Source of the DNA: Halieaceae bacterium
GTDB taxonomy: Bacteria; Pseudomonadota; Gammaproteobacteria; Pseudomonadales; Halieaceae
Reading direction: 5' to 3'
DNA length: 64,000 nucleotides
NCBI GenBank assembly: GCA_028282105.1
Contig: JANQIO010000038.1
Coordinates: 1 to 64,000, forward strand
The notes under the pieces are model-generated. The model saw only the letters and a list, made by a program, of their open reading frames with translations. It was not told the DNA's origin and searched no databases. The translations under genes and the position numbers were made by a program. Each line of letters begins with the position of its first letter. The stretch's first letter is position 1. Shown one piece after another: positions 29,323 through 46,142 of the stretch.

Positions 29323-31890
29323 TCAGTCAAGCTTGGCGCGCAGTTCATAAAGCAGGTCCAGGGCCTGCCGCGGCGTCAGGTTATCTACGTCAATGCCCTG
29401 CAACTGGTCTACCACCGGGTGCGGCGCGGCGCCAAAAAGATCGTCCTGGGCCGGTGAACGTGGCGTCGCTGAGGGGGCGCCGCCGGCTTCCAGTTCCGCC
29501 AGCTTGTCGCCCGCCTGCGCCAGCACTGCCGGCGGGATGCCCGCCAGTTTGGCGACCTGAAGTCCATAGCTGCGGTTGGCAGGGCCCTCTTGGATATTGT
29601 GCAGGAACACCACGTGATCCTGGTACTCGGTGGCATCCAGGTGCACGTTGGCCATGGTCGGGCACTGTTCGGGCAGGGTGGTCAGCTCGAAGTAGTGGGT
29701 GGAAAACAGGGTGAAGGCACGCACCTGCTGCGCCAGTTGCACGGCGGCGGCCCAGGCCAGGGACAGACCGTCGAAGGTGCTGGTGCCGCGCCCCACCTCG
29801 TCCATCAGTACCAGCGAGCGAGGCGTGGCGTTGTGGAGGATGTTGGCAGTCTCGGTCATTTCCACCATGAAGGTGGAGCGTCCGCCGGCCAGGTCATCGG
29901 AGGAGCCAATGCGGGTGAAAATCCGGTCCAGCGGCGACAGCCGGGCGCGCTCGGCGGGCACAAAGCTGCCCACGTGGGCCAGCAGGGCAATCACCGCCGC
30001 CTGGCGCATATAGGTGGATTTACCACCCATGTTAGGGCCGGTGATCAGCAGCATGCGACGCTGGTCGTTGAGCAGGCAGTCGTTGGCAATGAAAGGTTCT
30101 TCCAGCACCTGCTCCACCACCAGATGGCGCCCGGCGCTAATGTCGATCGTCTGTTCCTCCACGAACTCGGGTTCGCACAGGCTGAGGTTCTCGGCGCGCT
30201 CGGCCAGGGTCGCAAGAACGTCCAGTTCGGAGACGGCGGCGGCGGTCTGCTGCAGCGGCAGCAAGCTGTCGTTGAGCGCGTCGAGCAGGCCCTCGTACAG
30301 GTGTTTCTCGCGCGCCAGGGCCCGGCTTTTACTGGACAGGGCCTTGTCCTCAAACTCCTTGAGCTCGGGTGTGATATAGCGCTCGGCATTCTTCAGGGTC
30401 TGGCGCCGGATGTACTCATCGGGAGCCTGGGCCGCCTGCGCCTTGCTGATCTCTATGTAGTAGCCATGCACCCGGTTGTAGCCCACCTTGAGAGTGCTCA
30501 GTCCAGTGCGCTCCCGTTCGCGCTCCTCGATCTCCAGCAAGTAGTCGCCGGCGCCACTGGCAATGCTGCGCAGTTCGTCCAGTTCCTCGTCGTAGCCGTC
30601 AGCGATCACGCCGCCATCGCGCAGCACCACCGGCGGGTTCTCGATCACCGCGCGATTCAGCAGTTCCACCGTGTCGGGGTATTCGTTGCACTGCTGCTGC
30701 AGCTGGCCCAGCAGTGGGGTCTGGCAGCGATTCAGTTCGTTGCGGATGGCCGGCAGGGCGGCCAGTGACTGGCACAGCCGGGACAGGTCCCGGGGCCGGG
30801 CCGAGCGCAGCGCCACCCGCGACAGGATCCGCTCCATGTCGCCAATCGGCTTGAGCAGTTCGCGCAGGGTCTCGAAATGGTAGTTGGCTCCCAGGCCGCG
30901 TACCGCTTCGTGACGGCTGCCGAGAATCCCGGTGTCGGTGAGTGGCCGGTGCAGCCAGCGCCGCAGCATGCGAGCGCCCATGGCAGTCACAGCGGTGTTC
31001 ATGACAGCAAACAGGGTATTGCTGTCGCCGCCCATCAGGTTGATGTCGATTTCCAGATTGCGGCGGGTGGCCGCATCCAGCACCACGCTGTCCTCGCGCC
31101 GCTCCCGGGCCAGGCTGGTCAGGTGTGGCAGGCTGGAACGCTGGGTGTCTTTGACATACTGCAGCAGGCAGCCGGCAGCGCCGATGGCCAGTGACATGCC
31201 CTCGATGCCAAAGCCGCTGAGGTCGTGGGTCTGGAACTGGCTGTTGAGCGCCCGCTGCGCCGCTTCCTGGTCAAACTCCCAGGCGGCCTGCAGACGCGCT
31301 CCGGGCCGCCGCTCAAGGTCCGGCAGCGGCAGATTGTCCTGAATCAGCAGTTCCGCCGGGTCCAGGCGCTGCAACTCGCCGCGCAGGGCCTCTTCACCTC
31401 GCACTTCCAACACCTGGAAACGCCCGGCAGACAGTTCCAGCCAGGCCAGCCCGAACTCGCCGCCCTGGTCGCTTATCCGGCCGCAGACCGCCAGCAGCAG
31501 GTTGTCGCGGGTTTCCTCCAGCAGCGCCTCGTCGCTCAGGGTGCCGGGGGTGACTACCCGCACCACCTGGCGCTCTACCGGCCCTTTGCTGGTGGCCGGG
31601 TCGCCGATCTGCTCGCAGATGGCCACCGACACGCCGGCGCGCACCAACCGCGCCAGGTAGCCCTCGGCGGCGTGGTAGGGCACGCCGGCCATGGGGATCG
31701 GCTCGCCGCCGGACTTGCCGCGGGCGGTGAGGGTGATGTCCAGCAGCTCCGCCGCCCGCTTGGCATCGTCGAAGAACAGTTCGTAGAAATCCCCCATGCG
31801 GTAGAACACCAGGTCCTGCGGATGCTGGGCCTTGATGGCCAGGTACTGGACCATCATCGGCGTGTGTTCTGACTGGGTTTTCGTGCTCAA
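29323..31890 (-). CDS. mutS: DNA mismatch repair protein MutS
   Basis: [44 protein letters not shown]. Confidence 0.98.
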
Positions 31891-32029
31891 GGGCGGGCGC
31901 TATTGGGGCGAAAACGCGCAGGTTAGCAGGGCTCATCTGCACCGGCAAACCGGGGCCTGTCGCCAGCCATATTCGGTCAATTCGGGCCACGGCTGCTGCC
32001 ATATCGACCGGGAAAAGTGGTGTCCGGCG

Positions 32030-32054
32030 GGAATAGTTGGCGATTACCGGCGTT
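32030..32054 (+). promoter_or_regulatory. Candidate ECF-type promoter, copy 1, upstream of the HlyD operon
   Basis: GGAAT(32030-32034)-N16-CGTT(32051-32054); shares GGGAATAG-N10-CCGGCGTTGT with the copy at 39532. Confidence 0.6.
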
Positions 32055-32059
32055 GTCAT

Positions 32060-32097
32060 GGGTAGCGGGACAGGCGGATGGCCTGTTTCTGCTACCC
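32060..32097 (+). promoter_or_regulatory. Stem-loop at the predicted 5' end of the HlyD-operon mRNA
   Basis: GGGTAGC...ACAGGC GGATG GCCTGT...GCTACCC directly downstream of the candidate -10. Confidence 0.5.
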
Positions 32098-32127
32098 GAC
32101 AACGCACTGAATACAAAGGTATCGACC

Positions 32128-33324
32128 ATGTCGCCAAGTCGAGCACGACTGATAAGCACCGAGACTCCTGACGCCGCCGTCCCCGCCGGCGTGGATGCCG
32201 CACCTGGCCCCGAAGCTCCGGCCCCAGCGCCGCAGCGAGCGGCTCGCAGGCGGCTTTTCCTGGCGATTGCCGGCGCCCTCTGCCTGGCTGCTGCGCTGGC
32301 GACGGTGGCTGTCTGGTGGCATTACCAAAGTACACATGTGGTGACGCGCAATGCCCTGGTGCGCTCGCATCTTTCCGAGCTTGGCGTTCGCGGCGAGGGC
32401 GTCATTGCCCAGGTGTTTGTCAGTGCCGGCGACCATGTCCGCCAGGGCCAGCTGCTAGCCGTACTGGAGAATGCCCACCTCATCGCACAGCGGGCGCAGA
32501 TTGAGGCCCAGCTGAAAACCCTGGAGCAGCGAATCGCCGTTGACGAGGCGGCGTTTGGCATCGCCATGGAGAATGCCCGGGTCAGCCTGCTGCGCGCGGA
32601 ATCCGAGTATCGCCAGATGCAGGCAGAGGCCGAGGCCGCGCGGATTCAGGCGGAAGACTCCCGGGCGTTTCACGCTGCGCGTCAGGCCCTGCAGTCCGAT
32701 GGCGCGGTGTCGGCCGAGATCATTCGCGATGCCGCGGCCAAGGCCGCTATGAGCGCTTCACTGGCCACGGCCGCCAACGCGGCGATGGCCGGCAGCTTTT
32801 CCGATCTCGAGACCGCCAGGCTGGCGCAGGAAGAAGCCGCACTGCGGGAGGGCGAGCTGCTGGTCCTGAAGGCCCAGCGTGAGGAGCTGCTGGCGGAACT
32901 GCAGCGCATCGCCGCGGATGTCGAGAGCACCCGGGTTACCGCTCCCGCCGACGGCGCGGTGGTGCGCCGACTGGCGCAACCGGGTATGGCCGTAAAAACC
33001 GGCATGCCACTGCTCAGTCTCTGGCTGACGGAAGATACCTGGATCGAAGCCTGGATTCCGGAGGAGCAACTCGGCGACCTTCAGCCCGGTAGCACCGTGA
33101 GCGTGAGTTTCCCCGCGCTCCCCCATGCGGATTTCCCCGGGCGACTGGAACGTGTGGGGCTGGCGACCGACTTCGAGATGCCGGTGGACTACCTGCCGCA
33201 GACGCGCGAAACGCGCATGCGCCCGACGCCTCAGATCGGCGTGCAGATTCGCCTGGAAGCTGCCCCGGAATTGATGCGCCCGGGCATGTCAGCGGTGGTT
33301 GATATTCGCCGCGGGGGTGCCTGA
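32128..33324 (+). CDS. HlyD-family periplasmic adaptor / membrane fusion protein
   Basis: One N-terminal TM; GVIAQVFVSAGDHVRQGQLLAVLENAHL biotinyl/lipoyl-like half; long coiled coil; TRVTAPADGAVVRRLAQPGMAV second half. Confidence 0.85.
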   Translation: MSPSRARLISTETPDAAVPAGVDAAPGPEAPAPAPQRAARRRLFLAIAGALCLAAALATVAVWWHYQSTHVVTRNALVRSHLSELGVRGEGVIAQVFVSAGDHVRQGQLLAVLENAHLIAQRAQIEAQLKTLEQRIAVDEAAFGIAMENARVSLLRAESEYRQMQAEAEAARIQAEDSRAFHAARQALQSDGAVSAEIIRDAAAKAAMSASLATAANAAMAGSFSDLETARLAQEEAALREGELLVLKAQREELLAELQRIAADVESTRVTAPADGAVVRRLAQPGMAVKTGMPLLSLWLTEDTWIEAWIPEEQLGDLQPGSTVSVSFPALPHADFPGRLERVGLATDFEMPVDYLPQTRETRMRPTPQIGVQIRLEAAPELMRPGMSAVVDIRRGGA

Positions 33325-33327
33325 GCG

Positions 33328-35205
33328 ATGGGTATCGAAGCCAACGGTGCAGTCCGCGGCGCCCTGTCCAACTGGGATCGCCAACGCATCCCGACAGCCT
33401 GGCTGTATGCGCTGCTTGCGGTGGGCCTGTTGCCGCTGTCGTTGATCCTGGTGCGGCTGCTGGCGCTGCACAGCCCCGGCCTGTCAATGGCGACCGCGGT
33501 GGGTGACTGGCTGAACCAGTACCTGACGCTGCAGTGGGTCGGCTTTGAGGATCGCGATGTGATCCTCTATATCCTGCTGCTTCCGGTGGCGGCCTTGCTG
33601 ATTGCCCTGACGCGCCTGACGCTGGGTATTCGCGTGCTCGGGTTTCGCTCCATCCTGATCGCTATCGGGATGCAGGAAAACGGTGTCGTACCCTGCCTGC
33701 TGCTGATCCTGCTGATTGCCGGCACCGTGGTGCTGGTCAGGCCCAGCATGCGCCGGTCAGGCATGCCTCTCTACGCGCGGGTGGCGGTGGTGCTCTGTGT
33801 GGTGTCATTCGTGATGCTCGGCGCGCTGTTTACCGGTGCCTGGCTGGATTCGGTCACGCTCTGGAGCATGGCCTTCTTCCCCCTGGTCATCCTGGCCATG
33901 CTCGCGGAGAGCATCGCCGATACCGTGGCCCGTGACGGCCTGGCAATGGCCGCCTGGCGCACCACCACCACGATTGTGCTGGCCGGTGTCATCGCGGGGC
34001 TGAACCAGCTCACGCCGCTGCGCGAGCTGTTGCTGTCCTGCCCGGAACTGCTGCTGGCACCACTGGTGGCGATTGTCTTCGTGTCCGAGTTCCTGGATAT
34101 GCGGCTGCTGGAAGGCTTCCGCCCGGGTGCGAACCCGGGGCGCGTGCAGTCCGCCAGGCCGCAGCTTGCGGTGGTGCGCAATCGATTTCCCGAGGCCTCG
34201 CCCCGTCGCCTTGCAGAGCAGGTGCCGAAGCGCTACCGCCAGGCTTCGCTGCAGGCGCTGATCGATGAACTGCGGGACCGCGACTATGACGTGCAGGTGC
34301 TGGAGTGCGATAGCTCCTTGCCTTCCAAGCTGCGCAGCCTGGCGAATGCGGCGTTTCGCCCTCACGCCGCCGGCCTCTGCGTGCTGAATTACGCCGGTGG
34401 CGTCCAGGGCGCTTCACGGCTGTCACAGGTGCCGATGATCTGCGAAATACTCGGGATTCCACACACGGGCCCCGGGGCCGAGGCCGGCGTACTGAGGGCC
34501 AGCCGCCCGCAGCAGCTCGATGAACTGCGAGCCGCCGGCCTGCGGGTGCCTGTTGCCATAAGCTATCAGCAGGCCCGGCGCTTCCTGCAGGCGGGCAGCG
34601 GATTCCTGTCTGTCCGCTCATCTGGCCATGTAGATCGAGGCGCGACCCGAGTGGGAAATGCACGGCGTCTCAAAACGGTGTGCGATCGCATGGCAGGGGC
34701 TGGCGAGGGCTACCTGATTGAGCGGATTCCGGCCGGCCAGGCGGTGACTGCGATTGTCCTCAACCCGGAAGCGGCTGATGCCGCCCGGGTGCTGCCACTG
34801 CTGGAACGCGGTTCCGGCCGACAGCCCTTCCGCCGCGAGGCCGATCTCACCAGCGAATGCCGCGCTGCAGCCGTCAGCGCCGCCCTCTGCGCCGCCAGGG
34901 CGCTGCAGTGCTGTGACGTGGCCAGGGTTGACCTGTATTGCAACGAGTCCCGTGAGGTAACGGTCGTTCGCGTACTCGCCGTTGACCCGCTGGCAGAGCG
35001 CAGCGCCAGCGGCGTTGCAGCCGCCCTCGGCGGTCTGTCACTGGCAGACGTCGCTGAGCAGGCAATGCAGTCCGCGCTCGCCAGGGCGTCGCTGGCCACA
35101 GCTTCTCACCCGGTCGGGCAACCGGCCATCAATACCCCATCTACCGACAACGACAACAGGAGTTCTGAACCATGCTTAACTTCAGCCTCATCCGCGATGC
35201 TATAG
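33328..35205 (+). CDS. Multi-TM (7TM_transglut-like) membrane protein fused to a degenerate D-Ala-D-Ala-ligase-like ATP-grasp domain
   Basis: N-half with several TM helices incl. LGIRVLGFRSILIAIGMQENGVVPCLLLILLI; C-half NYAGGVQGASRLSQVPMICEILGIPHTGPGAEAGVLRASRPQQ resembles Ddl but lacks the usual DK and ExN residues. Confidence 0.55.
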   Translation: MGIEANGAVRGALSNWDRQRIPTAWLYALLAVGLLPLSLILVRLLALHSPGLSMATAVGDWLNQYLTLQWVGFEDRDVILYILLLPVAALLIALTRLTLGIRVLGFRSILIAIGMQENGVVPCLLLILLIAGTVVLVRPSMRRSGMPLYARVAVVLCVVSFVMLGALFTGAWLDSVTLWSMAFFPLVILAMLAESIADTVARDGLAMAAWRTTTTIVLAGVIAGLNQLTPLRELLLSCPELLLAPLVAIVFVSEFLDMRLLEGFRPGANPGRVQSARPQLAVVRNRFPEASPRRLAEQVPKRYRQASLQALIDELRDRDYDVQVLECDSSLPSKLRSLANAAFRPHAAGLCVLNYAGGVQGASRLSQVPMICEILGIPHTGPGAEAGVLRASRPQQLDELRAAGLRVPVAISYQQARRFLQAGSGFLSVRSSGHVDRGATRVGNARRLKTVCDRMAGAGEGYLIERIPAGQAVTAIVLNPEAADAARVLPLLERGSGRQPFRREADLTSECRAAAVSAALCAARALQCCDVARVDLYCNESREVTVVRVLAVDPLAERSASGVAAALGGLSLADVAEQAMQSALARASLATASHPVGQPAINTPSTDNDNRSSEPCLTSASSAML

Positions 35206-35747
35206 ATACCGAACCGTTTCTCAATGAGATTGCCGCACTGGACGGTGCCTGGGAGCAGGCCACCGGGCGGCAGGACAAGATCCGCGTGCAGCGCGAGGCA
35301 CTGTCTATCCCCCTCCGTGGCCTGCGCAAGTCGGCCATCGCCGGGCGACCGCGCCGGGACGTGCTGGAGAGCCGTTGGACCAGCGGGTCGGTGGCCTTCC
35401 CCCACGCTCGCAGGTTCATTCAGTCTGCGGCGGATGAACTCGGCGGCCTGCCCGGGCGTGCCAAAATCGTAAACCTTGCGCCGGGAAAACGCGTATACCC
35501 GCATGTCGACCGTGGCGCATACTATCTTGTTCATGCTCGATTCCACCTGGTGTTGAGGTCGACCCACGGCTCGATGCTCCGCGTGGGTGAGGAAACGCAG
35601 TGCCTCCGGAATGGTGAACTCTGGTGGTTTGACAACAACAAGATCCACGAAGCCTGGAACGATGGCGATGAAAATCGGATTCATCTCATTTTTGACGTAC
35701 TTCCGGCAGCGCACAGCGAGTCTTTCGCCGTTAACCAGGCGCCTTAA
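35172..35747 (+). CDS. Aspartyl/asparaginyl beta-hydroxylase family Fe(II)/2OG dioxygenase
   Basis: VYPHVDRGAYYLVHARFHLVLRSTHGSMLRVGEE...GELWWFDNNKIHEAWNDGDENRIHLIFDV (HxD...H fold motif). Confidence 0.85.
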   Translation: MLNFSLIRDAIDTEPFLNEIAALDGAWEQATGRQDKIRVQREALSIPLRGLRKSAIAGRPRRDVLESRWTSGSVAFPHARRFIQSAADELGGLPGRAKIVNLAPGKRVYPHVDRGAYYLVHARFHLVLRSTHGSMLRVGEETQCLRNGELWWFDNNKIHEAWNDGDENRIHLIFDVLPAAHSESFAVNQAP

Positions 35748-37836
35748 CAAGCTGCCCGGGCGGCGCTTTCACGGCGTAGCCGCACTGTTTCTCCTGGCCA
35801 CCCTGGTTGTGGCCATCGACCCTGTGCGTGTGACAGCGCAAGAGGGTGCAGAGGAGGCTGCTGAAGAAGCCGCGGAGGAAGCCGCCGAGGAATCAGCCGA
35901 GGAAGCGGCGGAGGAAGCCGCGGAAGAAGCGGCCGAGGAAGCCGCGGAAGAAGCGGCCGAGGAAGCTGCGGAAGAAGCGGCCGAGGAGGCCGCCGAAGAA
36001 GCTGCCGAGGAGGCCGCGGAAGAAGCCGCCGAGGAAGCTGCGGAAGAAGCCGCCGAGGAAGCCGCCGAGGAAGCTGCGGAAGAAGCTGCGGAAGAAGCTG
36101 CCGAGGAGGCCGCGGAAGAAGCCGCCGAGGAAGCCGCGGAAGAAGCCGCCGAGGAAGCCGCGGAAGAAGCTGCCGAGGAAGCCGCGGAAGAAGCCGCCGA
36201 GGAAGCCGCCGAGGAAGCGGCTGAGGAGGCTGCTGAAGAAGCCGCGGAGGAAGCCGCGGAGGAAGCCGCGGAGGAAGCCGCGGAGGAAGCCGCCGAGGAA
36301 GCTGCTGAGGAAGCCGCCGAGGAAGCTGCCGAGGAGGCGGCCGAAGAAGCTGCGGAAGAAGCGGCTGAGGAAGCGGCTGAGGAAGCCGCCGAAGAAGCTG
36401 CTGAGGAAGCCGCGGAAGAAGACGCTGAAGAATACGCTGAGGAAGCTGCGGAAGAGGCAGCCGAGGAAGCGGCCGAGGCGGAGCTGGAGGCATCGGCTGA
36501 GGACTATCCGGAAGACTACCTCGACGACGCCCTCGATGACGACTTTGAAGAGGGCCTGGAGGATGACGTTGAGGATGACCTGGACGAGGTTCTCGACGAA
36601 GAGTTTGAGGACGACCGGGACGACCTGGATGACGAGTGGGACGACGACGAGTCAGATTCGGAGGGGCGCTACGATTCTGAGGCCGAGGACTACGACTATG
36701 AGGAGGGCCTCTCTGCCGATGCCCAGGTAGAGCGATCTGTAGATCGCCTGCTGAACATGATTGAGCTGGAACCAGAGCTCTTCGTGGCCCGCGATGAGTT
36801 ACTGGTGCTGGCGAACGCCCGGGACGTGCAGGCGATTGCCGCCAACCCACAGCTGAGCTCAGTCTCTATCGACGACCTGAGTAGCCTGGGCGACTCCCTG
36901 GGCCGTTTTGTGATCCAGGGCGATGTGCGCCTTGACCAGCTCAAGACGGACTTCAGCCGGCGCTACCCGGATGCTGCCATCGACTTCAATCACGGTTTCG
37001 CCCTCGCGCAGGCTCCCCGGCCCGGCGCTACCGCCCTGGGCCTGTATCGCACGGAGGCCATAGATCCACAGGCCGGTCTGCGCGTCGGTATCGTCGACAG
37101 CAGCGTGAACCTGCAACACCCGTTGCTGTCAGGCGCCGGGATACGGCAGCGCCAGTTTGTGCCGGTAGCGCAGCAATCGACCAGCGATCACGGCACGGCG
37201 GTGGCGTCACTGTTGGTAGGGCAGTCGGATTCCTTCGCGGGCATGGCGGTAGGCGCCCAGCTCTATTCCGCGTCGGTGTTCTTCAGGGATGCCCGCACAG
37301 ACCTGATCGCCTCGACAGACGGCCTGGTTACTGCGCTGGCCTGGCTGGCGGAGCAGGGCGTAGATGTTGTGAACATGAGCCTGGCGGGACCACCCAACGC
37401 GGTTGTCGAGCGTGCCCTCCAGCGACTGAGCGAGCAGGGCACGCTGGTTGTTGCCGCCGTCGGCAACGATGGCCCCTTCGCTAAACCGCGATACCCTTCG
37501 GCCTATGCCAGCGTGATTGGCGTGGGTGCGGTCGATGAGAGTGGCCGGGCCTACCGTCGATCCGGCCGGGGCAATCACGTGGAGTTTACTGCGCCGGGTG
37601 TCGACGTATGCGCCGCCGCCGGCAACGGCGAGATTCGACCCTTTACCGGAACCTCCTTTGCCGCGCCGGTGGTGTCCGGGCTGCTATTGCAAAGGCTGAG
37701 CACCTCACCTGATCCGCAGTCCGCGCTGGAGGCACTGCGCGCTGACACCCTGGATCTGGGCCGGCCCGGCACGGACCCGGTCTTCGGCCGGGGCCTGGCC
37801 GGTCGCAGTCTGCTGCTGCGTCCCTTACAGCCCTGA
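35668..37836 (+). CDS. Secreted subtilisin-like (S8) serine protease with poly(AEEA) and Asp-rich N-terminal region; overlaps hydroxylase gene (start uncertain)
   Basis: Hydrophobic leader VAALFLLATLVVAIDPVRVTAQ; catalytic motifs GIVDSSVN (Asp), DHGTAVASL (His), GTSFAAPVVSG (Ser). Confidence 0.85.
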   Translation: MKIGFISFLTYFRQRTASLSPLTRRLNKLPGRRFHGVAALFLLATLVVAIDPVRVTAQEGAEEAAEEAAEEAAEESAEEAAEEAAEEAAEEAAEEAAEEAAEEAAEEAAEEAAEEAAEEAAEEAAEEAAEEAAEEAAEEAAEEAAEEAAEEAAEEAAEEAAEEAAEEAAEEAAEEAAEEAAEEAAEEAAEEAAEEAAEEAAEEAAEEAAEEAAEEAAEEAAEEAAEEAAEEAAEEAAEEAAEEAAEEAAEEDAEEYAEEAAEEAAEEAAEAELEASAEDYPEDYLDDALDDDFEEGLEDDVEDDLDEVLDEEFEDDRDDLDDEWDDDESDSEGRYDSEAEDYDYEEGLSADAQVERSVDRLLNMIELEPELFVARDELLVLANARDVQAIAANPQLSSVSIDDLSSLGDSLGRFVIQGDVRLDQLKTDFSRRYPDAAIDFNHGFALAQAPRPGATALGLYRTEAIDPQAGLRVGIVDSSVNLQHPLLSGAGIRQRQFVPVAQQSTSDHGTAVASLLVGQSDSFAGMAVGAQLYSASVFFRDARTDLIASTDGLVTALAWLAEQGVDVVNMSLAGPPNAVVERALQRLSEQGTLVVAAVGNDGPFAKPRYPSAYASVIGVGAVDESGRAYRRSGRGNHVEFTAPGVDVCAAAGNGEIRPFTGTSFAAPVVSGLLLQRLSTSPDPQSALEALRADTLDLGRPGTDPVFGRGLAGRSLLLRPLQP
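35848..36477 (+). repeat. 12-bp-period coding repeat, about 52 AEEA tetrapeptide units
   Basis: GCC/GCG/GCT-GAG/GAA-GAA/GAG-GCN repeated almost uninterrupted over ~630 bp. Confidence 0.97.
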
Positions 37837-38580
37837 TCCGTCCCAGCCCGACTGGATGGCCTGTTGCTCCTCGGTGTAGCTGAGCTCAGTGGCCCGGGTC
37901 AGGGCCGGCGCCAGTTCGGCTCCGGCTTCCAGGCCTTCAGCGACCCGGTAGGCATCACTTTCCTGTGCGCTAACGCTGCCTTGCTGGCTTATCAGCTCCC
38001 AGCGGCCCGCCCGGTCGCGACAGGCCACACCGCTAGACTCTGCGCCCGCCTGTGAACTCATGAACTCGCGGCAGAAGGTGTCGGCCTCTGTCGTGAAGGA
38101 CAGCATTGGCGCAATACTGATCGAGCCGTCAGCGCTGCTGCGCACGTCGCCACTGGGCACAGATTCCATCACCTCCTGCAGCAGCGCCGCGTAGCCTGCC
38201 TCCCCGGCGTCAACCGTGGGGCCTGCCGGGGATTGGAAAAGCTGGGTGTTGGTGGCGATAACCGTGGCCAGCCCGGCGGCGATAGCCAGTCCCACCAGCC
38301 CGCGGCGACGGGGGAAGGGGAGTATCTCCGCTGATTGCGGCTCCGCTAGCTGCTCCGGTTCGGGCCGCGGCTGGCGGATGGCATCCACCAGTCTCGAAGG
38401 TACTGGCATCTCCAGCAATTCGTCTGCCGCGGCGGCGAACGCCTTGTCGGCTTTGGCCAGCTTATCCAGCAGTTCCCTGGACGCCGGGTCATCGAAGCGC
38501 TGTTCTCGCGCCTCGGATGTATCCCCGGCGGGTAACTCGCCATCGTGAAGCGCCATCAGTTCATCAATGTCATCACGCAT
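37825..38580 (-). CDS. Transmembrane anti-sigma factor
   Basis: MRDDIDELMALHDGELP N-terminus, single TM GLVGLAIAAGLATVIAT, periplasmic C-domain, overlaps ECF sigma gene. Confidence 0.8.
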   Translation of the reverse strand: MRDDIDELMALHDGELPAGDTSEAREQRFDDPASRELLDKLAKADKAFAAAADELLEMPVPSRLVDAIRQPRPEPEQLAEPQSAEILPFPRRRGLVGLAIAAGLATVIATNTQLFQSPAGPTVDAGEAGYAALLQEVMESVPSGDVRSSADGSISIAPMLSFTTEADTFCREFMSSQAGAESSGVACRDRAGRWELISQQGSVSAQESDAYRVAEGLEAGAELAPALTRATELSYTEEQQAIQSGWDGSGL

Positions 38581-39097
38581 TTTCTTGTCCTCTCTCCGGG
38601 CTCGCTTCGGCCTCTTCGAGTATGGCCGTGATCCTCGCCCTGGCTCTGGCCAGGCGGCTCATCACGGTGCCCACAGGTATATCCAGGGTGTCAGCGGCCT
38701 CACGGTAAGAATGCTCTTCAACGGCCACCAGCAGCATCACCACCCGCTGCTCTTCGGGCAGCTCGTCGATAATCCGCGACAGCACGCTGAGCATATTTTC
38801 CCGTTCCGGCAGACCTTTGCTGCCCGCATCGACCAACTCTTCAACAGAGTCCTCATGCAGGTGTTCGGAGCGCCTGCCCTGGCTCCGTAGCTGATCGATA
38901 TGCAGGTTTTGAATGATTCGATAGACCCAGGAATCCAATCGGGTGCCGACCTGCCACTGGTCCCGCTTGAGCAGCGCCTTCTCGCAGGCCTGCTGGACGA
39001 GATCGTCGGCCTGGTCCAGGTCGCCCGTCAGCGTCAGCGCAAAACGCCGAAGCCGCGGAAGTAGTGAAACCAGCTCTTCGGTAAAATCAGAGGTCAT
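38573..39097 (-). CDS. ECF-family RNA polymerase sigma factor
   Basis: LTGDLDQADDLVQQACEKALLKRDQWQVGTRLDSWVYRIIQNLHIDQLRSQGRR; region 4 LPEEQRVVMLLVAVEEHSYREAADTLDIPVGTVMSRLARARARI. Confidence 0.95.
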   Translation of the reverse strand: MTSDFTEELVSLLPRLRRFALTLTGDLDQADDLVQQACEKALLKRDQWQVGTRLDSWVYRIIQNLHIDQLRSQGRRSEHLHEDSVEELVDAGSKGLPERENMLSVLSRIIDELPEEQRVVMLLVAVEEHSYREAADTLDIPVGTVMSRLARARARITAILEEAEASPERGQENA

Positions 39098-39444
39098 TCC
39101 TTGCCCGCTATGGCGCTGCCGCACCGGCAGCCAGATGATTTTACAGTCGCTCCGCGCCGGCTTCAGCGCTGTGCCCGGCGTCTGCCGGCTGTATCCCTGA
39201 ATGCGCTGGCCGGCACCCCTTGGTAGCGGCGAGGTGACCGCAACCACCATGACGCGCTTGCCGGCTCCAGCCCCGGCACGGCGGTTCACCTGCCCCGGCA
39301 CACGGGTGTGCCCGAAGCCCCATTTAACCTCATGCAAGGGTCTCCAGCTAGCACCTGATTCTTTCAGAAGCATCATTCTCACGCCTTTTGTTCAACTGGG
39401 TGGATGTTCATTGCGGTGTGAATCTCCACCGCCAATACACCTAT

Positions 39445-39469
39445 AACGCTCGTGGTTTCACTTTATTCC
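39445..39469 (-). promoter_or_regulatory. Candidate ECF-type promoter, copy 3, reading toward the sigma gene
   Basis: Minus strand GGAAT-AAAGTGAAACCACGAG(16)-CGTT. Confidence 0.5.
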
Positions 39470-39531
39470 CATTAAATCTGCAGTCCTGGCAGCGACGCAG
39501 AGGCGGCGGCAAGATTTTTTTTACGATCCGG

Positions 39532-39556
39532 GGAATAGCTGTCGAAAGCCGGCGTT
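39532..39556 (+). promoter_or_regulatory. Candidate ECF-type promoter, copy 2, upstream of alpha/beta hydrolase operon
   Basis: GGAAT-AGCTGTCGAAAGCCGG(16)-CGTT, 25 bp before the ORF start. Confidence 0.6.
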
Positions 39557-39580
39557 GTAGCTAGTGTCCCAACCGCAGAT

Positions 39581-40414
39581 TTGAACACGGAGATCACCAT
39601 GCAATACGAGAACCTGAACCGGGAACGAGTTCGACAGGCAGCGGGCGACACCGTTTTGTCTATCTGTCCGGCCGGCGTGCTGGAATCGACGGTTATCCTT
39701 CCCAGCGCCCCCGGATCACAGGCTCCGCTGTTGGCGCTGCACGGCATATCCCGCAACGCCGGTGAGCTCTGCGGTGCGTTTGCCGCCGCCGCGGAAGCCA
39801 CCGGACGCATCGTAGTGGTACCACACTTCACGGCAGACAAATGGCCGGTTTATCAGCGCATCACCCGGCGCGCACGCCCCGACAAGACGATACTGGCCCT
39901 GCTCGCCACACTGCGAGCCATGGACGCCGCCTTTCGCGGACCGGTCGATATTTTCGGTTTCTCCGGCGGTGCCCAGTTGGCACATCGCTTCGCCATGCTG
40001 TACCCGGAAGCGGTGGGCGACTTGCACCTCGGCGCAGCCGGTTGGTACACGCTCCCCGACGAGTCGGCGGCCTATCCCTACGGCATTGGCGAGTCCGCCA
40101 CCCGTCAGGAACCGTGGAGCCGCTTGATGAGGTCCGGGCTGCGCAGCTATTTGCAACGTCGCATCAGCGTGTACGTGGGTTCGGACGACACGTCCCGGGA
40201 CGAGTCACTACGCCAGAATGAAGTGGTTGATGATCAGCAGGGCGCGCATCGGCTACAACGAGCCCGCCGCTATGTGGCCTCAGTCAATGGCCGCCAGGCG
40301 GCGCTCGGGCTGCCGCGCAGCGCTCGACTGACGTTCCTGCAGGGCTGTGATCACAGCTTTAGCACCTGCGTAGCGCGAGGAGAGCTCGCGCTCAAAGTTT
40401 GCCAAAACAACTGA
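39581..40414 (+). CDS. Alpha/beta hydrolase
   Basis: LLALHGISRNAGE oxyanion-hole region, nucleophile elbow GFSGGAQLAHRFA, C-terminal GCDHSF. Confidence 0.8.
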   Translation: MNTEITMQYENLNRERVRQAAGDTVLSICPAGVLESTVILPSAPGSQAPLLALHGISRNAGELCGAFAAAAEATGRIVVVPHFTADKWPVYQRITRRARPDKTILALLATLRAMDAAFRGPVDIFGFSGGAQLAHRFAMLYPEAVGDLHLGAAGWYTLPDESAAYPYGIGESATRQEPWSRLMRSGLRSYLQRRISVYVGSDDTSRDESLRQNEVVDDQQGAHRLQRARRYVASVNGRQAALGLPRSARLTFLQGCDHSFSTCVARGELALKVCQNN

Positions 40415-40447
40415 CCAATGATTGATTGCAAAAAAAGGAAGCCAGCC

Positions 40448-41527
40448 ATGACCCTCAAAGCCATTACTAATGACCCAGTCACCCTGTTGAGCAATGCCCA
40501 TTGGTGCTTCGCCGCCCGGCGCGTGGACCAGGCCGACGCGGTATCCCTGCACCAGAACTACAGCCGCGTGCGGCCCGGTGATCTTGTCCTGGCCCGGGTG
40601 CTGGAGATCGGCCAGCATCGCGGCATCCAGTTGCGCTCCGGCAGGCGGGCGGTGCTGTCCCCGGGAGATCTGGTGGTGATGCCCTGCGGTGCGCGCTATG
40701 CCCCCGACCAGTTCGAGGGCGTTGCGGAAATCGACCCCAGCGGTACCGATATGCTCGCCGGCGGCGGCTGTCTGGGTCGCGCCAGGTACAAGAATGAACG
40801 TGTCCGTTCTGCCACCCGCGTGCTACCCCTGGGTTGCGTCGCCGACCGCCACGGCAAGACGCTCAACCTGGAGTCCTACGTGATAGAGGCCACATCAGCG
40901 CCCACATCAGTGCCATTGATCGCCGTGGTGGGTACCTCCATGAACTCCGGCAAGACCCTCGCCACTGCAAAACTCAGCCATGGGCTGCGCCTTGCGGGGC
41001 TGCGTGTCGGGGCCATCAAGGCCACCGGCACCGGGTCGTTCGGTGACTACCACCAGTATCAGGACAGCGGCGCCCATTTTGTCGCAGATTTCAGCGACGT
41101 CGGCATGGCGACCACCTATCTTGAGCCGATCGATCGGATCAAAGCGGGTATCTGGCGCCTGTTGGGCGCGGCTGAGGCCGCCGGATGCGAGGTAGTGGTG
41201 ATGGAGATTGCCGATGGCCTGTTGCAGGCGGAGACCGGGGCGCTGCTGCGCGACCGTGAACTCAGGGAGCGTCTGTCCGGGCTGGTGTTCGCCTGTGGTG
41301 ATGCGGTCGCTGCCCAGGGCGGGGTTGGCATGCTGCGCTCCTTCGGCCACGAAGTCACGACCCTGACCGGCATGCTCAGCTGCTCGCCCATGTTGTCGAG
41401 CGAAGCCACTGCGGCCACCGGGGTGCAGGTGCTCACCAAGTCTGAGCTCGCGGAGCCCTCGGAGGCCCTGTCCGTGTTGCGCGCGGCGCATGGCTTCCAG
41501 CGCCCCGATGTAATCGGCGGCGACTGA
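40448..41527 (+). CDS. DUF1611-like P-loop protein
   Basis: VVGTSMNSGKTLATAKLSHGLRLAGLRVGAIKATGTGSFGDYHQYQDSGA (Walker A), VVVMEIADGLLQ. Confidence 0.6.
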   Translation: MTLKAITNDPVTLLSNAHWCFAARRVDQADAVSLHQNYSRVRPGDLVLARVLEIGQHRGIQLRSGRRAVLSPGDLVVMPCGARYAPDQFEGVAEIDPSGTDMLAGGGCLGRARYKNERVRSATRVLPLGCVADRHGKTLNLESYVIEATSAPTSVPLIAVVGTSMNSGKTLATAKLSHGLRLAGLRVGAIKATGTGSFGDYHQYQDSGAHFVADFSDVGMATTYLEPIDRIKAGIWRLLGAAEAAGCEVVVMEIADGLLQAETGALLRDRELRERLSGLVFACGDAVAAQGGVGMLRSFGHEVTTLTGMLSCSPMLSSEATAATGVQVLTKSELAEPSEALSVLRAAHGFQRPDVIGGD

Positions 41528-41603
41528 ACCTACGTAACAAAAGCAGCGCGGTTCCTGTGCGTCTGTGCAGTGATGAAGTTCCAGGACAAACGGTAAGGAA
41601 ATA

Positions 41604-42563
41604 GTGAGTATGATGGTTCGATCACCCCGTAACCGTGGCTGGATGGCGCGGTCTGGAAACACCGCTGCGTTTTGTCTGCTGACTTGCTTCACAGCGCAGG
41701 CCCAGTCGGAAGATGAGGACGAGCCACGCTTCTTTATTGAAGTGGAGGGTGGTGCCGAGTACGACAGCGTGGTCTCCCTGGACGAACTCGACCTGAGTAG
41801 TGAAGAGAGCGATACCGCAATCCGCGCCGAGGCCACCGTCGGTTATATGCAGCCTCTCGGAGAGACCGTTGAACTGGACCTCAGCTACAGTTACAACGTG
41901 CTGGACTATCAGGATTTCTCTGAAGTTGACCAGAATTCGCACATTGTCAGCGCGGACCTGAAGAAAGACCTGGGCGATGCAGACATCGGGCTGTCCGGCT
42001 TTTATGTCAATTCCGACCTGGACGACGAATCCTTCCTGGAACTGGCGCGCATATCGCCCTATGTGTCTGGGTTCTTTACCAGGGGGTGGTTCGCGCGCGC
42101 GGGCGTCGTCTACGCAGATAAGACCAATGACGTGAACTCCGGCCGAGATGCCACTACCGTGATCGGTGAAGTCGACCTGTACCACTTCCCACCCGGGAAG
42201 CCCTGGTTCGTCAATATCGGCTACAAGTACCGGGACGAAGATGCCGACGCCTCGCGCTTCGACTACACCGGCAATACGTTCAAGGCGCGCTACGTGCACC
42301 GCCTGACGCTGATGGGGAAGAAAGCGCGCTTCGAAGTGTCCTACCGCTACCTGGACCGCGACTACAGTTCGGTGACACCGTCTATCGGTGAAGATCGTTC
42401 CGATGAGCGTGACCGCGCGCACGTGCAACTGGAAGTATCGCTCGCGCCGCGTTTGGATGCCGAGTTGTACTACACCTATTCCGACTGGGAATCGAACCTG
42501 GAAAGCGTGGACTTCAACCAGTACGTCACCGGAATGGTGCTCCGCTACCGTTGGGAGCGGTGA
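41604..42563 (+). CDS. Outer-membrane beta-barrel protein
   Basis: Signal-like N-terminus ending AQAQS, alternating amphipathic strands, C-terminal YVTGMVLRYRWER. Confidence 0.75.
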   Translation: MSMMVRSPRNRGWMARSGNTAAFCLLTCFTAQAQSEDEDEPRFFIEVEGGAEYDSVVSLDELDLSSEESDTAIRAEATVGYMQPLGETVELDLSYSYNVLDYQDFSEVDQNSHIVSADLKKDLGDADIGLSGFYVNSDLDDESFLELARISPYVSGFFTRGWFARAGVVYADKTNDVNSGRDATTVIGEVDLYHFPPGKPWFVNIGYKYRDEDADASRFDYTGNTFKARYVHRLTLMGKKARFEVSYRYLDRDYSSVTPSIGEDRSDERDRAHVQLEVSLAPRLDAELYYTYSDWESNLESVDFNQYVTGMVLRYRWER

Positions 42564-42732: not shown

Positions 42733-43587
42733 ATGCAGGGCAGCAGGTTCAGCGCCCGCACTACCGTGTTGTGGCTCAGCGTCTTGTTGGTCGCTTTCTC
42801 GGCCCGGCCGGCGCCGGCTGCGGGTTACCCGCCCGCCGGGCCCGGAGTTGAGTTTGCGGCCGTGCTGGCGCTGCCTCCCGGACCGGCGCCCACCGTCCTG
42901 CCCTATGGCGAGCAGCCACAGCAATTTGTCGAACTGTCGAGGCCGGCGCAGGGTGATGGCCCGTTTCCGGTGGTGGTGTTTATCCATGGCGGCTGTTGGC
43001 TCAAGCAGTTCGATATCGGCTACAGCCGCGCCCTGGCGACTGCCCTCAACCAGGCGGGCTATGCCGTGTGGAACATCGAGTACCGGCGCCTGGGAAACGA
43101 GGGCGGCGGCTGGCCCGGCACGATGGATGACATTGCGGCGGCGCTGGCTTTGCTGGCGAATGAAGCCCCGGCGGGGCTTAACCTTGATCGCGTGGCCATT
43201 GCTGGCCATTCAGCCGGCGGCCACCTGGGCTTGCTGGCGCCTGCCCGAGCCCCGCGCGCACTGACGGTGCGCGGGGTGCTGGGGCTGGCCCCCATCACGG
43301 ACATTGCCCACTACGCCACCGGTGAAGGCAGCTGCAACCAGGCCGCGGCGGCGTTCCTGGACGGCCTGTCAGATGCGCAGCGGGCGGCTGCCAACCCCGC
43401 TCTGCAACCGGCACCGCGCGGTGCCGTGCTGCTCTATGGCAGCCGGGACCGCATTGTGCCGATGGAAGTGCCTTTTGTAGCCCCCGACCGGCTGGTGACC
43501 CTGGCCGTCGGCCACTTTGACTGGGTACATCCCGGTACCGCGGCTTTCCAGCGCTTCCTCGGGGAACTGGCGCAGGTGCTGCAGTGA
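42733..43587 (+). CDS. Alpha/beta hydrolase, probable kynurenine formamidase
   Basis: FIHGGCWLKQFD HGGxW, IAGHSAGGHLGLLA; GTGA overlap with kynU. Confidence 0.75.
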   Translation: MQGSRFSARTTVLWLSVLLVAFSARPAPAAGYPPAGPGVEFAAVLALPPGPAPTVLPYGEQPQQFVELSRPAQGDGPFPVVVFIHGGCWLKQFDIGYSRALATALNQAGYAVWNIEYRRLGNEGGGWPGTMDDIAAALALLANEAPAGLNLDRVAIAGHSAGGHLGLLAPARAPRALTVRGVLGLAPITDIAHYATGEGSCNQAAAAFLDGLSDAQRAAANPALQPAPRGAVLLYGSRDRIVPMEVPFVAPDRLVTLAVGHFDWVHPGTAAFQRFLGELAQVLQ

Positions 43588-44822
43588 TTACCCGGGAAGC
43601 TATCCTCGAACTGGATCGCCTGGACCCGCTGGCGCTGCAGCGGGATGCGTTCGCGCTGCCCCGCGACAAGGTCTACCTGGATGGCAACTCCCTCGGCGCG
43701 CTGCCACGAGCCGCGGCGGTGCGCGTGCAGGACACGGTACAGCAGCAGTGGGGCGTGGACCTGATCAGCAGTTGGAACCGGCACGGTTGGATCGACCTGC
43801 CCCAGGCGGTGGGCGAAAAAATTGCGCCTCTGGTCGGGGCAGCGCCGGGCCAGGTCATCTGCGCCGATTCAATCTCCGTCAATTTGTTCAAGCTGCTGTC
43901 GGTAGTCTCTATGCTGCGGCCGGAGCGCCCCGTGGTGCTGTCGGCGGCGGACAACTTCCCCACCGACCTGTACATGGTGCAGGGTCTGTCGCAGTTGCTG
44001 GGAGAGCAAAAGCTGCGGCTGGTGCAGGTGGCCGAGGCGGAAATCACCGACGCGCTTAACGAACGGGTGGCGGCGGTGCTGTTGAGCCATGTGAATTTCC
44101 GCACCGGGCGCATCCTGCCGATGGCGGAGATTACGGCGGCTACCCAGACGGCAGGTGCGTTGTCGATCTGGGATCTCGCCCACAGCGCCGGTGCGATGCC
44201 GGTGGAGCTGGATGCCTGCCAGGTCGATTTTGCGGTGGGCTGCGGCTACAAGTATTTCAATGGCGGTCCCGGTGCGCCAGCCTGGGTGTACGCCGCCGAA
44301 CGCCACCAGGACGCGGTGCAGCAGCCCCTGTGCGGCTGGATGGGCCACCGGGACCCCTTCGTGTTCGACCCGGACTACGAAGCTGCCGCAGGGATGCTGC
44401 AATATCTGTGCGGCACGCCCCCGGTACTGTCGATGGCGGCCCTGGACGCGGCGTTGGACCTGTTTGCCGATATTGACATGCAGGCGCTACGCGCCAAGTC
44501 CCTGGCCCTGGGCACCCTGTTCCTGGAGCTCCTGCACAAGACAGAACTGGCGGCAGAGCTGCGCCTTTTGTCGCCTCCCGAGTCGGAGCTGCGCGGCAGC
44601 CAGCTCGCCTTCAGCCATCCCCAGGCCTACGGATTGGTGCAGGCCTGGATTGAGCGCGGCGTGGTGGCGGATTTCCGCGAGCCCGACGTGCTGCGGGTGG
44701 GCTTCTCACCGCTGTACAACAGCTACGGCGACATCTGGCAGGCGCTGGAAGCGCTGCGTGAAGTGATGGCTCAGCGCGAACACCTCGACCCCCGCTGGCA
44801 GCAGCGCCAGAAAGTCACCTGA
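43584..44822 (+). CDS. kynU: Kynureninase
   Basis: VYLDGNSLGALPRAA; SIWDLAHSAGAMPVEL; GCGYKYFNGGPGAPAWVY. Confidence 0.95.
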   Translation: MITREAILELDRLDPLALQRDAFALPRDKVYLDGNSLGALPRAAAVRVQDTVQQQWGVDLISSWNRHGWIDLPQAVGEKIAPLVGAAPGQVICADSISVNLFKLLSVVSMLRPERPVVLSAADNFPTDLYMVQGLSQLLGEQKLRLVQVAEAEITDALNERVAAVLLSHVNFRTGRILPMAEITAATQTAGALSIWDLAHSAGAMPVELDACQVDFAVGCGYKYFNGGPGAPAWVYAAERHQDAVQQPLCGWMGHRDPFVFDPDYEAAAGMLQYLCGTPPVLSMAALDAALDLFADIDMQALRAKSLALGTLFLELLHKTELAAELRLLSPPESELRGSQLAFSHPQAYGLVQAWIERGVVADFREPDVLRVGFSPLYNSYGDIWQALEALREVMAQREHLDPRWQQRQKVT

Positions 44823-45065: not shown

Positions 45066-46142
45066 ATGGATGCCAACAAGCAAAAAGCTCTTGATGCCGC
45101 CCTCAGCCAGATCGAACGTCAGTTCGGCAAAGGTACCGTCATGCGGATGGGGGATACCGAACAGGCGGCCATTCCCAGTATTTCAACCGGTTCCCTGGGC
45201 CTGGATGTTGCCCTCGGCATCGGCGGCCTGCCGCGGGGCCGGATCGTGGAAATCTACGGGCCGGAATCCTCGGGCAAGACCACGCTCACCCTGCAGGTGA
45301 TCGCCGAAGCCCAGAAAGCCGGCGGCACCGCGGCCTTCATCGACGCGGAGCACGCCCTTGACCCCAGCTACGCTGAGAAACTGGGCGTGCAGATTGACGA
45401 CCTGATCGTCTCGCAGCCGGATACCGGTGAACAGGCCCTGGAAGTCACCGAGATGCTGGTGCGGTCCGGTGCCGTTGACGTGCTGGTGGTGGATTCGGTG
45501 GCCGCACTCACCCCGAAGGCGGAGATCGAGGGCGAGATGGGGGATTCCCACGTCGGCCTGCAGGCGCGCTTGCTCAGCCAGGCCATGCGCAAACTGACCG
45601 GCACCATCAAGCAGACCAACTGCATGGTGATCTTCATCAACCAGATTCGTATGAAGATCGGCGTTATGTTTGGCAGCCCGGAGACCACCACGGGCGGTAA
45701 TGCACTCAAGTTCTACTCCTCTGTACGTCTGGATATCCGTCGCATTGGCGCGGTCAAGGAAGGCGACGAGGTGGTGGGTAACGAGACGCGTGTGAAGGTG
45801 GTGAAAAACAAGGTCTCGCCACCCTTCAAGCAGGCTGAATTCCAGATCATGTACGGCAAGGGAATCTATCGGATGGCGGAAGTCATCGATATTGGTGTGA
45901 AGCTCAATCTGGTCGACAAGTCCGGCGCCTGGTACGCCTACAAGGGCGATAAGATCGGCCAGGGCAAGGCCAATGCAGCCAAGTTCCTCGAAGACAACCC
46001 GGCGATCTCCGGTGAGATAGAGGGGCAGATTCGCGCCCAACTGTTGAACCTGCCGAATCCTGCCGGTGAGGAAGCTGAGGCGGCAGAGGACACGGTGGAA
46101 GAAATGGCGGCTGACAGCCTGGAAGCCGGCGTCGAAGAGTAA
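45066..46142 (+). CDS. recA: Recombinase RecA
   Basis: [41 protein letters not shown]. Confidence 0.99.

Follow-up and report, generated by a model that had tools for sequence, protein, structure and literature searches.

A stretch of DNA from a Halieaceae bacterium (contig JANQIO010000038.1 of assembly GCA_028282105.1, a 4.1-Mb draft genome that is 95% complete) was analysed over its full 64,000 nucleotides, referred to here as the window. Between its mutS and recA genes lies an island in which four forward-strand genes, encoding a HlyD-family adaptor, a seven-transmembrane (7TM) protein fused to an ATP-grasp-like domain, a hydroxylase and a subtilase, converge on a pair encoding an anti-sigma factor and an extracytoplasmic function (ECF) sigma factor; genes for a hydrolase, a P-loop protein and an outer-membrane barrel follow on the forward strand (Table 1). 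An earlier reading of the window, the original prediction, had described these genes and their near-zero or overlapping junctions, and open reading frames (ORFs), translations and Pfam/NCBIfam matches bear it out at each position. The 5' end of the hydroxylase gene overlaps the fusion gene (35172 against 35205), and that of the subtilase gene falls within the hydroxylase gene. The poly(AEEA) tract ascribed to the subtilase is also real, being encoded by a tandem array. For the HlyD gene, the ATG at 32128 is a likelier start than 32017 because of the promoter-like site at 32029-32054.

Table 1. Coordinates of the genes and other features of the island and its flanks in the window
Feature	Position	Strand	Remarks
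mutS	29323-31890	-	left flank of island
ECF-type promoter-like site GGGAATAGTTGGCGATTACCGGCGTT 5' of HlyD gene	32029..32054	+	kept in three species
HlyD-family periplasmic adaptor, module A	32128..33324 (likely true ATG 32128; ORF from GTG 32017)	+	PF16576 E 1.8e-19, 70.3 bits; orthologues in six of six cassette genomes
7TM_transglut (PF14402) fused to degenerate D-Ala-D-Ala-ligase-like ATP-grasp, module A	33328..35205	+	PF14402 E 1.5e-15
Aspartyl/asparaginyl beta-hydroxylase family 2-oxoglutarate (2OG)-Fe(II) dioxygenase, module A	35172..35747	+	PF05118 E 5.8e-20
S8 subtilase, module B	35668..37836 (likely ATG 35668, start uncertain; ORF from 35587)	+	PF00082 E 1.6e-32
24-bp tandem repeat coding EEAA repeats, 25 copies	35866..36470	+	tandem array in subtilase gene
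Probable anti-sigma factor with a single transmembrane segment, module B	37825..38580	-	homologue of ECF-adjacent gene in other module B loci; transmembrane segment at residues 94-112
ECF sigma factor, module B	38573..39382 (likely ATG 39097)	-	Sigma70_r2 and r4_2
ECF-type promoter-like site 5' of ECF gene (autoregulation)	39445..39470	-	best match of other-genera position weight matrix (PWM) in 64-kb window
ECF-type promoter-like site 5' of alpha/beta hydrolase gene	39531..39556	+	alignment, exact pattern and PWM
Alpha/beta hydrolase, polyhydroxyalkanoate-depolymerase-like, module A	39599..40414 (ORF from 39581)	+	NF050058 E 9.4e-8, under its cut-off; cassette member
P-loop enzyme, weakly MobB/DUF1611-like, module A	40418..41527	+	Walker A GTSMNSGKT
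Outer-membrane beta-barrel protein, module B	41604..42563	+	PF13505 (OMP_b-brl) E 2.8e-7; adjoins subtilase in other module B loci
recA	45066-46142	+	right flank of island

The same arrangement is present in two other species of the genus, in each case on two contigs with the break in the EEAA repeat, and the nearest named relatives with this locus are the Halieaceae metagenome-assembled genomes (MAGs) PL25a_bin.6 and PL23b_bin.40. As judged from gene order, its retention in these two species means that the arrangement is not a product of chance. Targeted literature searches returned no description of this combination of genes, as had been supposed at the outset.

The distribution of the genes resolves the island into two units. 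The first, module A, comprises the P-loop enzyme, the alpha/beta hydrolase, the HlyD adaptor, the fusion of PF14402 to a pseudo-ATP-grasp domain, and the PF05118 hydroxylase. At three other Halieaceae loci (in Chromatocurvus halotolerans, L041; in an uncultured marine Halieaceae MAG, L045; and in genome G422, L108) these five genes lie compactly on one strand, in the order P-loop, hydrolase, HlyD, 7TM/ATP-grasp, hydroxylase, neighbours overlapping or nearly abutting, and in the genus of the window they are split into two blocks around the second unit. The P-loop gene and the hydroxylase clade (E about 1e-97 or better for the hydroxylase) occur in an identical set of six of the 140 Halieaceae genomes, and the fusion gene is found in each of the six; three of these genomes represent one genus, so that the independent count is about four. 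Given this co-occurrence and the five-gene clusters, the divergent hydrolase and P-loop genes can be placed with the HlyD, 7TM and hydroxylase genes, and gene content and order make it well supported that module A is a linked cassette travelling as a whole. There was no member of the hydroxylase clade in 398 other genomes sampled from the phylum, and no fused 7TM-pseudo-ATP-grasp protein outside Halieaceae in 392 genomes of the order and 274 of the class; a scan of the collection, limited by its strict peptide patterns, returned four Halieaceae contigs and none beyond. Anti-phage defence was considered as a role for the locus and rejected, with PADLOC giving no match beyond a trivial one to the subtilase.

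The second unit, module B, consists of the subtilase with its acidic N-terminus, the ECF sigma factor, the anti-sigma factor and the outer-membrane barrel. The subtilase begins with a hydrophobic segment, followed by the poly(EEAA) tract and an Asp-rich segment; it scores 113.4 bits against the S8 family, and the motifs carrying the catalytic Asp, His and Ser (GIVDSS, DHGTAVA and GTSFAAP) can be read in its sequence. The anti-sigma assignment is accompanied by a weak NCBIfam anti-sigma match in one homologue. Ten further module B loci (L195-L204) have the subtilase gene flanked on one side by the ECF gene and on the other by the barrel gene; the exception is L203, whose contig runs out within the subtilase, and L200 is truncated in the anti-sigma gene. 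Three of the ten belong to genomes that carry module A at another place. The subtilase family is found in 71 of the 140 Halieaceae genomes, against six for the hydroxylase, and acidic N-terminal tracts are seen in subtilases from genomes that have no hydroxylase. We therefore reject the subtilase as a core member of the cassette; from its separate loci across the Halieaceae, the independence of module B as a widespread unit is well supported. No account of such a unit came to our notice, although the literature searches were not aimed at it. Where the original prediction had combined all genes of the island in one system, the link of HlyD, 7TM and hydroxylase with the hydrolase and P-loop genes stands, whereas the subtilase, ECF, anti-sigma and barrel genes form a module apart. 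Similarly, the co-occurrence of subtilase and ECF, which it put forward as a check, is seen at other module B loci, but this unit lives separately from the cassette in most Halieaceae. One congener (G001) has a second copy of the subtilase, with EEEI instead of EEAA repeats, beside an outer-membrane barrel of its own (L203, 3284-4783).

What joins the two modules in the genus of the window is a common promoter type. Alignment of the intergenic regions of the three species revealed the pattern GGGAATA-N15-CGTT 5' of the HlyD, alpha/beta hydrolase and ECF genes. The window has three exact matches against 0.01 expected, an expectation calculated after the fact for a pattern chosen from these very sites; across the three whole genomes the exact matches number four, four and three, nine of the eleven falling at the three promoters, and this genome-wide scarcity, together with conservation, is stronger evidence than the window expectation. 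At most module B loci, back-to-back ECF-type promoters lie between the ECF and subtilase genes, and a PWM built from 16 module B sites of other genera (GGAAT[A/T]...CGT[C/T]) ranks the ECF site first, the HlyD site fourth and the hydrolase site fifth over the 64 kb. The features of an ECF/anti-sigma regulon that can be recognised from sequence only are present: regions 2 and 4 of the ECF protein, a membrane anti-sigma factor, and a promoter type common to the ECF gene and its putative targets. The predicted sharing of promoters by the ECF gene and both halves of module A is well supported, and because the same promoter type precedes the ECF, HlyD and hydrolase genes in three species, it suggests that one stress regulator, the ECF sigma factor of module B, controls both modules in this genus, much as had been claimed for the island. 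The start of the ECF gene is uncertain, with ATG 39097 giving a leader of about 350 nt; between this likely start and the promoter-like site a long stretch (39097-39470) is conserved, and this may be a long leader or may code for an N-terminal extension.

The "7TM" part of the fusion protein is the PF14402 domain (57.8 bits against a cut-off of 25) of RloB-type "inactive transglutaminase" membrane proteins. For the C-terminal domain, the AlphaFold model, which has good local confidence in this region, matches the D-alanine-D-alanine ligase Ddl 3r5x (Foldseek E 2.7e-13, template modelling score 0.78 by target length). The domain thus resembles D-alanine-D-alanine ligases in predicted fold, but differs from them in its active site: on alignment with the closest intact relatives (Ddl-like proteins in G617 and G635, with catalytic residues present), all six fusion homologues have lost both ATP lysines, the ExN magnesium ligands and a loop of about 23 residues, and keep the fold and scattered residues. 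Conservation across the six is far higher in the 7TM half than in the ATP-grasp half. Since the catalytic residues are gone in every homologue, the domain is probably not a ligase, and we reject an active ATP-grasp amino-acid ligase, the activity ascribed to it earlier; a non-catalytic binding or regulatory domain is probably what remains. The genes for the closest intact relatives (L206 and L207) adjoin gamma-glutamyltransferase-like genes, and at L206 the ATP-grasp is fused to an apparent peptidase domain.

The hydroxylase scores 72.2 bits against a PF05118 cut-off of 22.6, and H111, D113, H159 and R169, corresponding to the HxD...H metal site and the 2OG arginine, are invariant in all six homologues. 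The alpha/beta hydrolase retains a GxSGG nucleophile along with candidate Asp and His residues, so that the residues of a Ser/Asp/His triad are conserved. Walker A is kept in all copies of the P-loop protein, which otherwise has weak MobB/DUF1611/CbiA matches and a poor structure model (mean predicted local distance difference test score 54.5), its fold matches not being interpretable past P-loop folds; DgcN- or LpxK-like roles were also considered for it. A distant P-loop subfamily adjoins an argininosuccinate-synthase-like gene (L160, L161 and L162), and at L162 a semialdehyde dehydrogenase and a class-III aminotransferase are also nearby, hinting at an amino-acid pathway.

In other Gammaproteobacteria the P-loop protein adjoins an ATP-binding cassette (ABC) exporter at most of 16 close loci, often together with a hydrolase and Porin_O_P. 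The clusters at L144-L146 and L149, for which we found no described name, share with the Halieaceae cassette a P-loop orthologue about 45-52% identical, a homologous hydrolase and a neighbouring membrane transporter, but have an MsbA-like ABC exporter where Halieaceae have HlyD, the 7TM/pseudo-ATP-grasp fusion and the hydroxylase; their hydrolase has, in several loci, an N-terminal hydrophobic segment that the Halieaceae hydrolase lacks. Because the same P-loop/hydrolase pair sits with an ABC exporter elsewhere, this comparison of neighbourhoods suggests that Halieaceae use HlyD, the fusion protein and the hydroxylase instead of the exporter. A DUF5666 gene is found nearby in some of the clusters (L144, L145, L146 and L149). 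In the mutS-recA interval of the window, a hormone-sensitive-lipase-like hydrolase gene and a kynureninase gene (42733-44822) additionally lie between the outer-membrane barrel and recA, and two congeners have them at the corresponding position (L193 and L194).

The reading that we favour, tentatively and at a little short of an even chance, is that, in one Halieaceae genus, two ancestral modules became interleaved and came under a single ECF sigma factor. An envelope signal would release the module B ECF from the membrane anti-sigma factor, allowing it to transcribe its own genes and both halves of module A. The cytosolic P-loop protein, as a nucleotide-dependent enzyme, the esterase/hydrolase and the 2OG hydroxylase would make or remodel a small molecule, lipid or peptide directed to the envelope, which HlyD and the 7TM protein may move, or couple to the envelope, as substitutes for the ABC exporter found with the same P-loop/hydrolase pair elsewhere; the dead ATP-grasp domain would serve on the cytosolic side as a substrate-binding or regulatory domain, and the subtilase would be co-expressed to supply the stress module's protease arm, without being an obligatory substrate.

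Several points weigh against this reading. HlyD adaptors normally require an energised partner, and Pfam/NCBIfam identify none (ABC, major facilitator superfamily or resistance-nodulation-division inner-membrane pump) among the proteins of the locus. We found no published demonstration of a transport role for PF14402. The HlyD and hydrolase sites score 13-14 with the PWM, within the range of the top matches in shuffled sequence, so the case for these promoters is carried by where they lie, how they are oriented and how well they are conserved; the genome-wide count used a motif that came from the same loci; and no ECF-type motif was found 5' of module A outside the genus.

It is possible, though we think it doubtful, that the cassette represents a new envelope pathway, in which the RloB-type 7TM protein fused to a dead Ddl-like domain would form with HlyD an ABC-independent export or transfer device, served by a dedicated 2OG hydroxylase, P-loop enzyme and hydrolase and captured in one genus by the stress sigma factor of a protease module. 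RloB-type 7TM proteins influence the osmotic tolerance and antibiotic sensitivity of Gammaproteobacteria as well as their vesicle formation; here the 7TM domain comes without a transglutaminase domain, has a dead ligase as its fusion partner and is linked with HlyD and a hydroxylase, and with the cassette standing where an ABC exporter is found elsewhere, a role in transport or transfer becomes directly testable. The genus of the window would likewise be a clear example of the capture of an entire cassette by a stress sigma factor, testable by expression profiling.

Among the alternatives, the one that survives best, although we consider it unlikely, is that module A is an Rlo-like regulator of osmotic or envelope stress, in which the 7TM protein, like RloB, senses or controls the state of the envelope, and the remaining genes adjust homeostasis of the cell wall or of vesicles, with no product exported. 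The PF14402 domain is common to RloB and the fusion protein; mutations in rloB and rloC suppress the hypo-osmotic sensitivity of rloA triple mutants (PMC12239564), and disruption of an inactive-transglutaminase 7TM gene changes vesicle production in Shewanella (PMC12096838). No second PF14402 gene was seen in the genomes of the window and its two congeners, where the fusion might have assumed the role of RloB; Chromatocurvus and G514, however, keep a canonical RloB-type gene along with the cassette, which argues against simple replacement, and the locus is without a retropepsin, a transglutaminase domain or an active ATP-grasp. Less probable again is an incidental co-location, whereby module A landed beside module B and hitch-hikes on its promoters: the modules are unlinked outside the genus, and the absence there of a motif 5' of module A, already noted, would fit, but three species, with fusion proteins 75-80% identical, have retained both the arrangement and the full set of three promoter sites, and elsewhere in their genomes the motif is nearly absent. 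Finally, the model of the original prediction, a single stress-induced pathway for modifying the subtilase at its acidic repeat (by hydroxylase and ATP-grasp) and exporting it through HlyD, draws on the position of the subtilase directly after the hydroxylase (presumably under the same promoter) in three species, on the presence of the subtilase family in all six cassette carriers and on the cleavage of polyglutamate by RloA proteases (PMC12239564), which makes acidic tracts a plausible theme, but is improbable given the distribution of the subtilase and its acidic tracts set out above, its location away from the hydroxylase in Chromatocurvus, G422 and G513, the degenerate ATP-grasp domain, the want of an energised exporter, and an N-terminal hydrophobic segment with which the protease would not need HlyD to reach the periplasm.

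The hydroxylase shares with the AspH/LpxO/OlsC family the PF05118 domain, the HxD...H metal site and the 2OG arginine; its closest solved relatives are AspH proteins and its closest curated models LpxO and OlsC, yet it scores below the cut-offs of both and forms a clade of its own. With RloABC of Pseudomonas aeruginosa (PMC12239564) the locus has in common the seven-helix PF14402 membrane domain found together with an ATP-grasp, and an envelope-related context. We reject a canonical RloABC, since the retropepsin, the transglutaminase domain and the separate RimK-like ATP-grasp are all absent from the locus: the retropepsin-like RloA (PF05618) has no match anywhere in the window genome (95% complete); the fusion protein has no Pfam match to the inactive transglutaminase domain, with only about 68 residues ahead of its 7TM match; and there is no RloC in the locus, the only place where it was looked for. 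Where RloC is a separate RimK-like protein, the ATP-grasp of the Halieaceae protein is fused, of Ddl type and degenerate, and the cassette adds to it genes for HlyD, the hydroxylase, the hydrolase and the P-loop enzyme.

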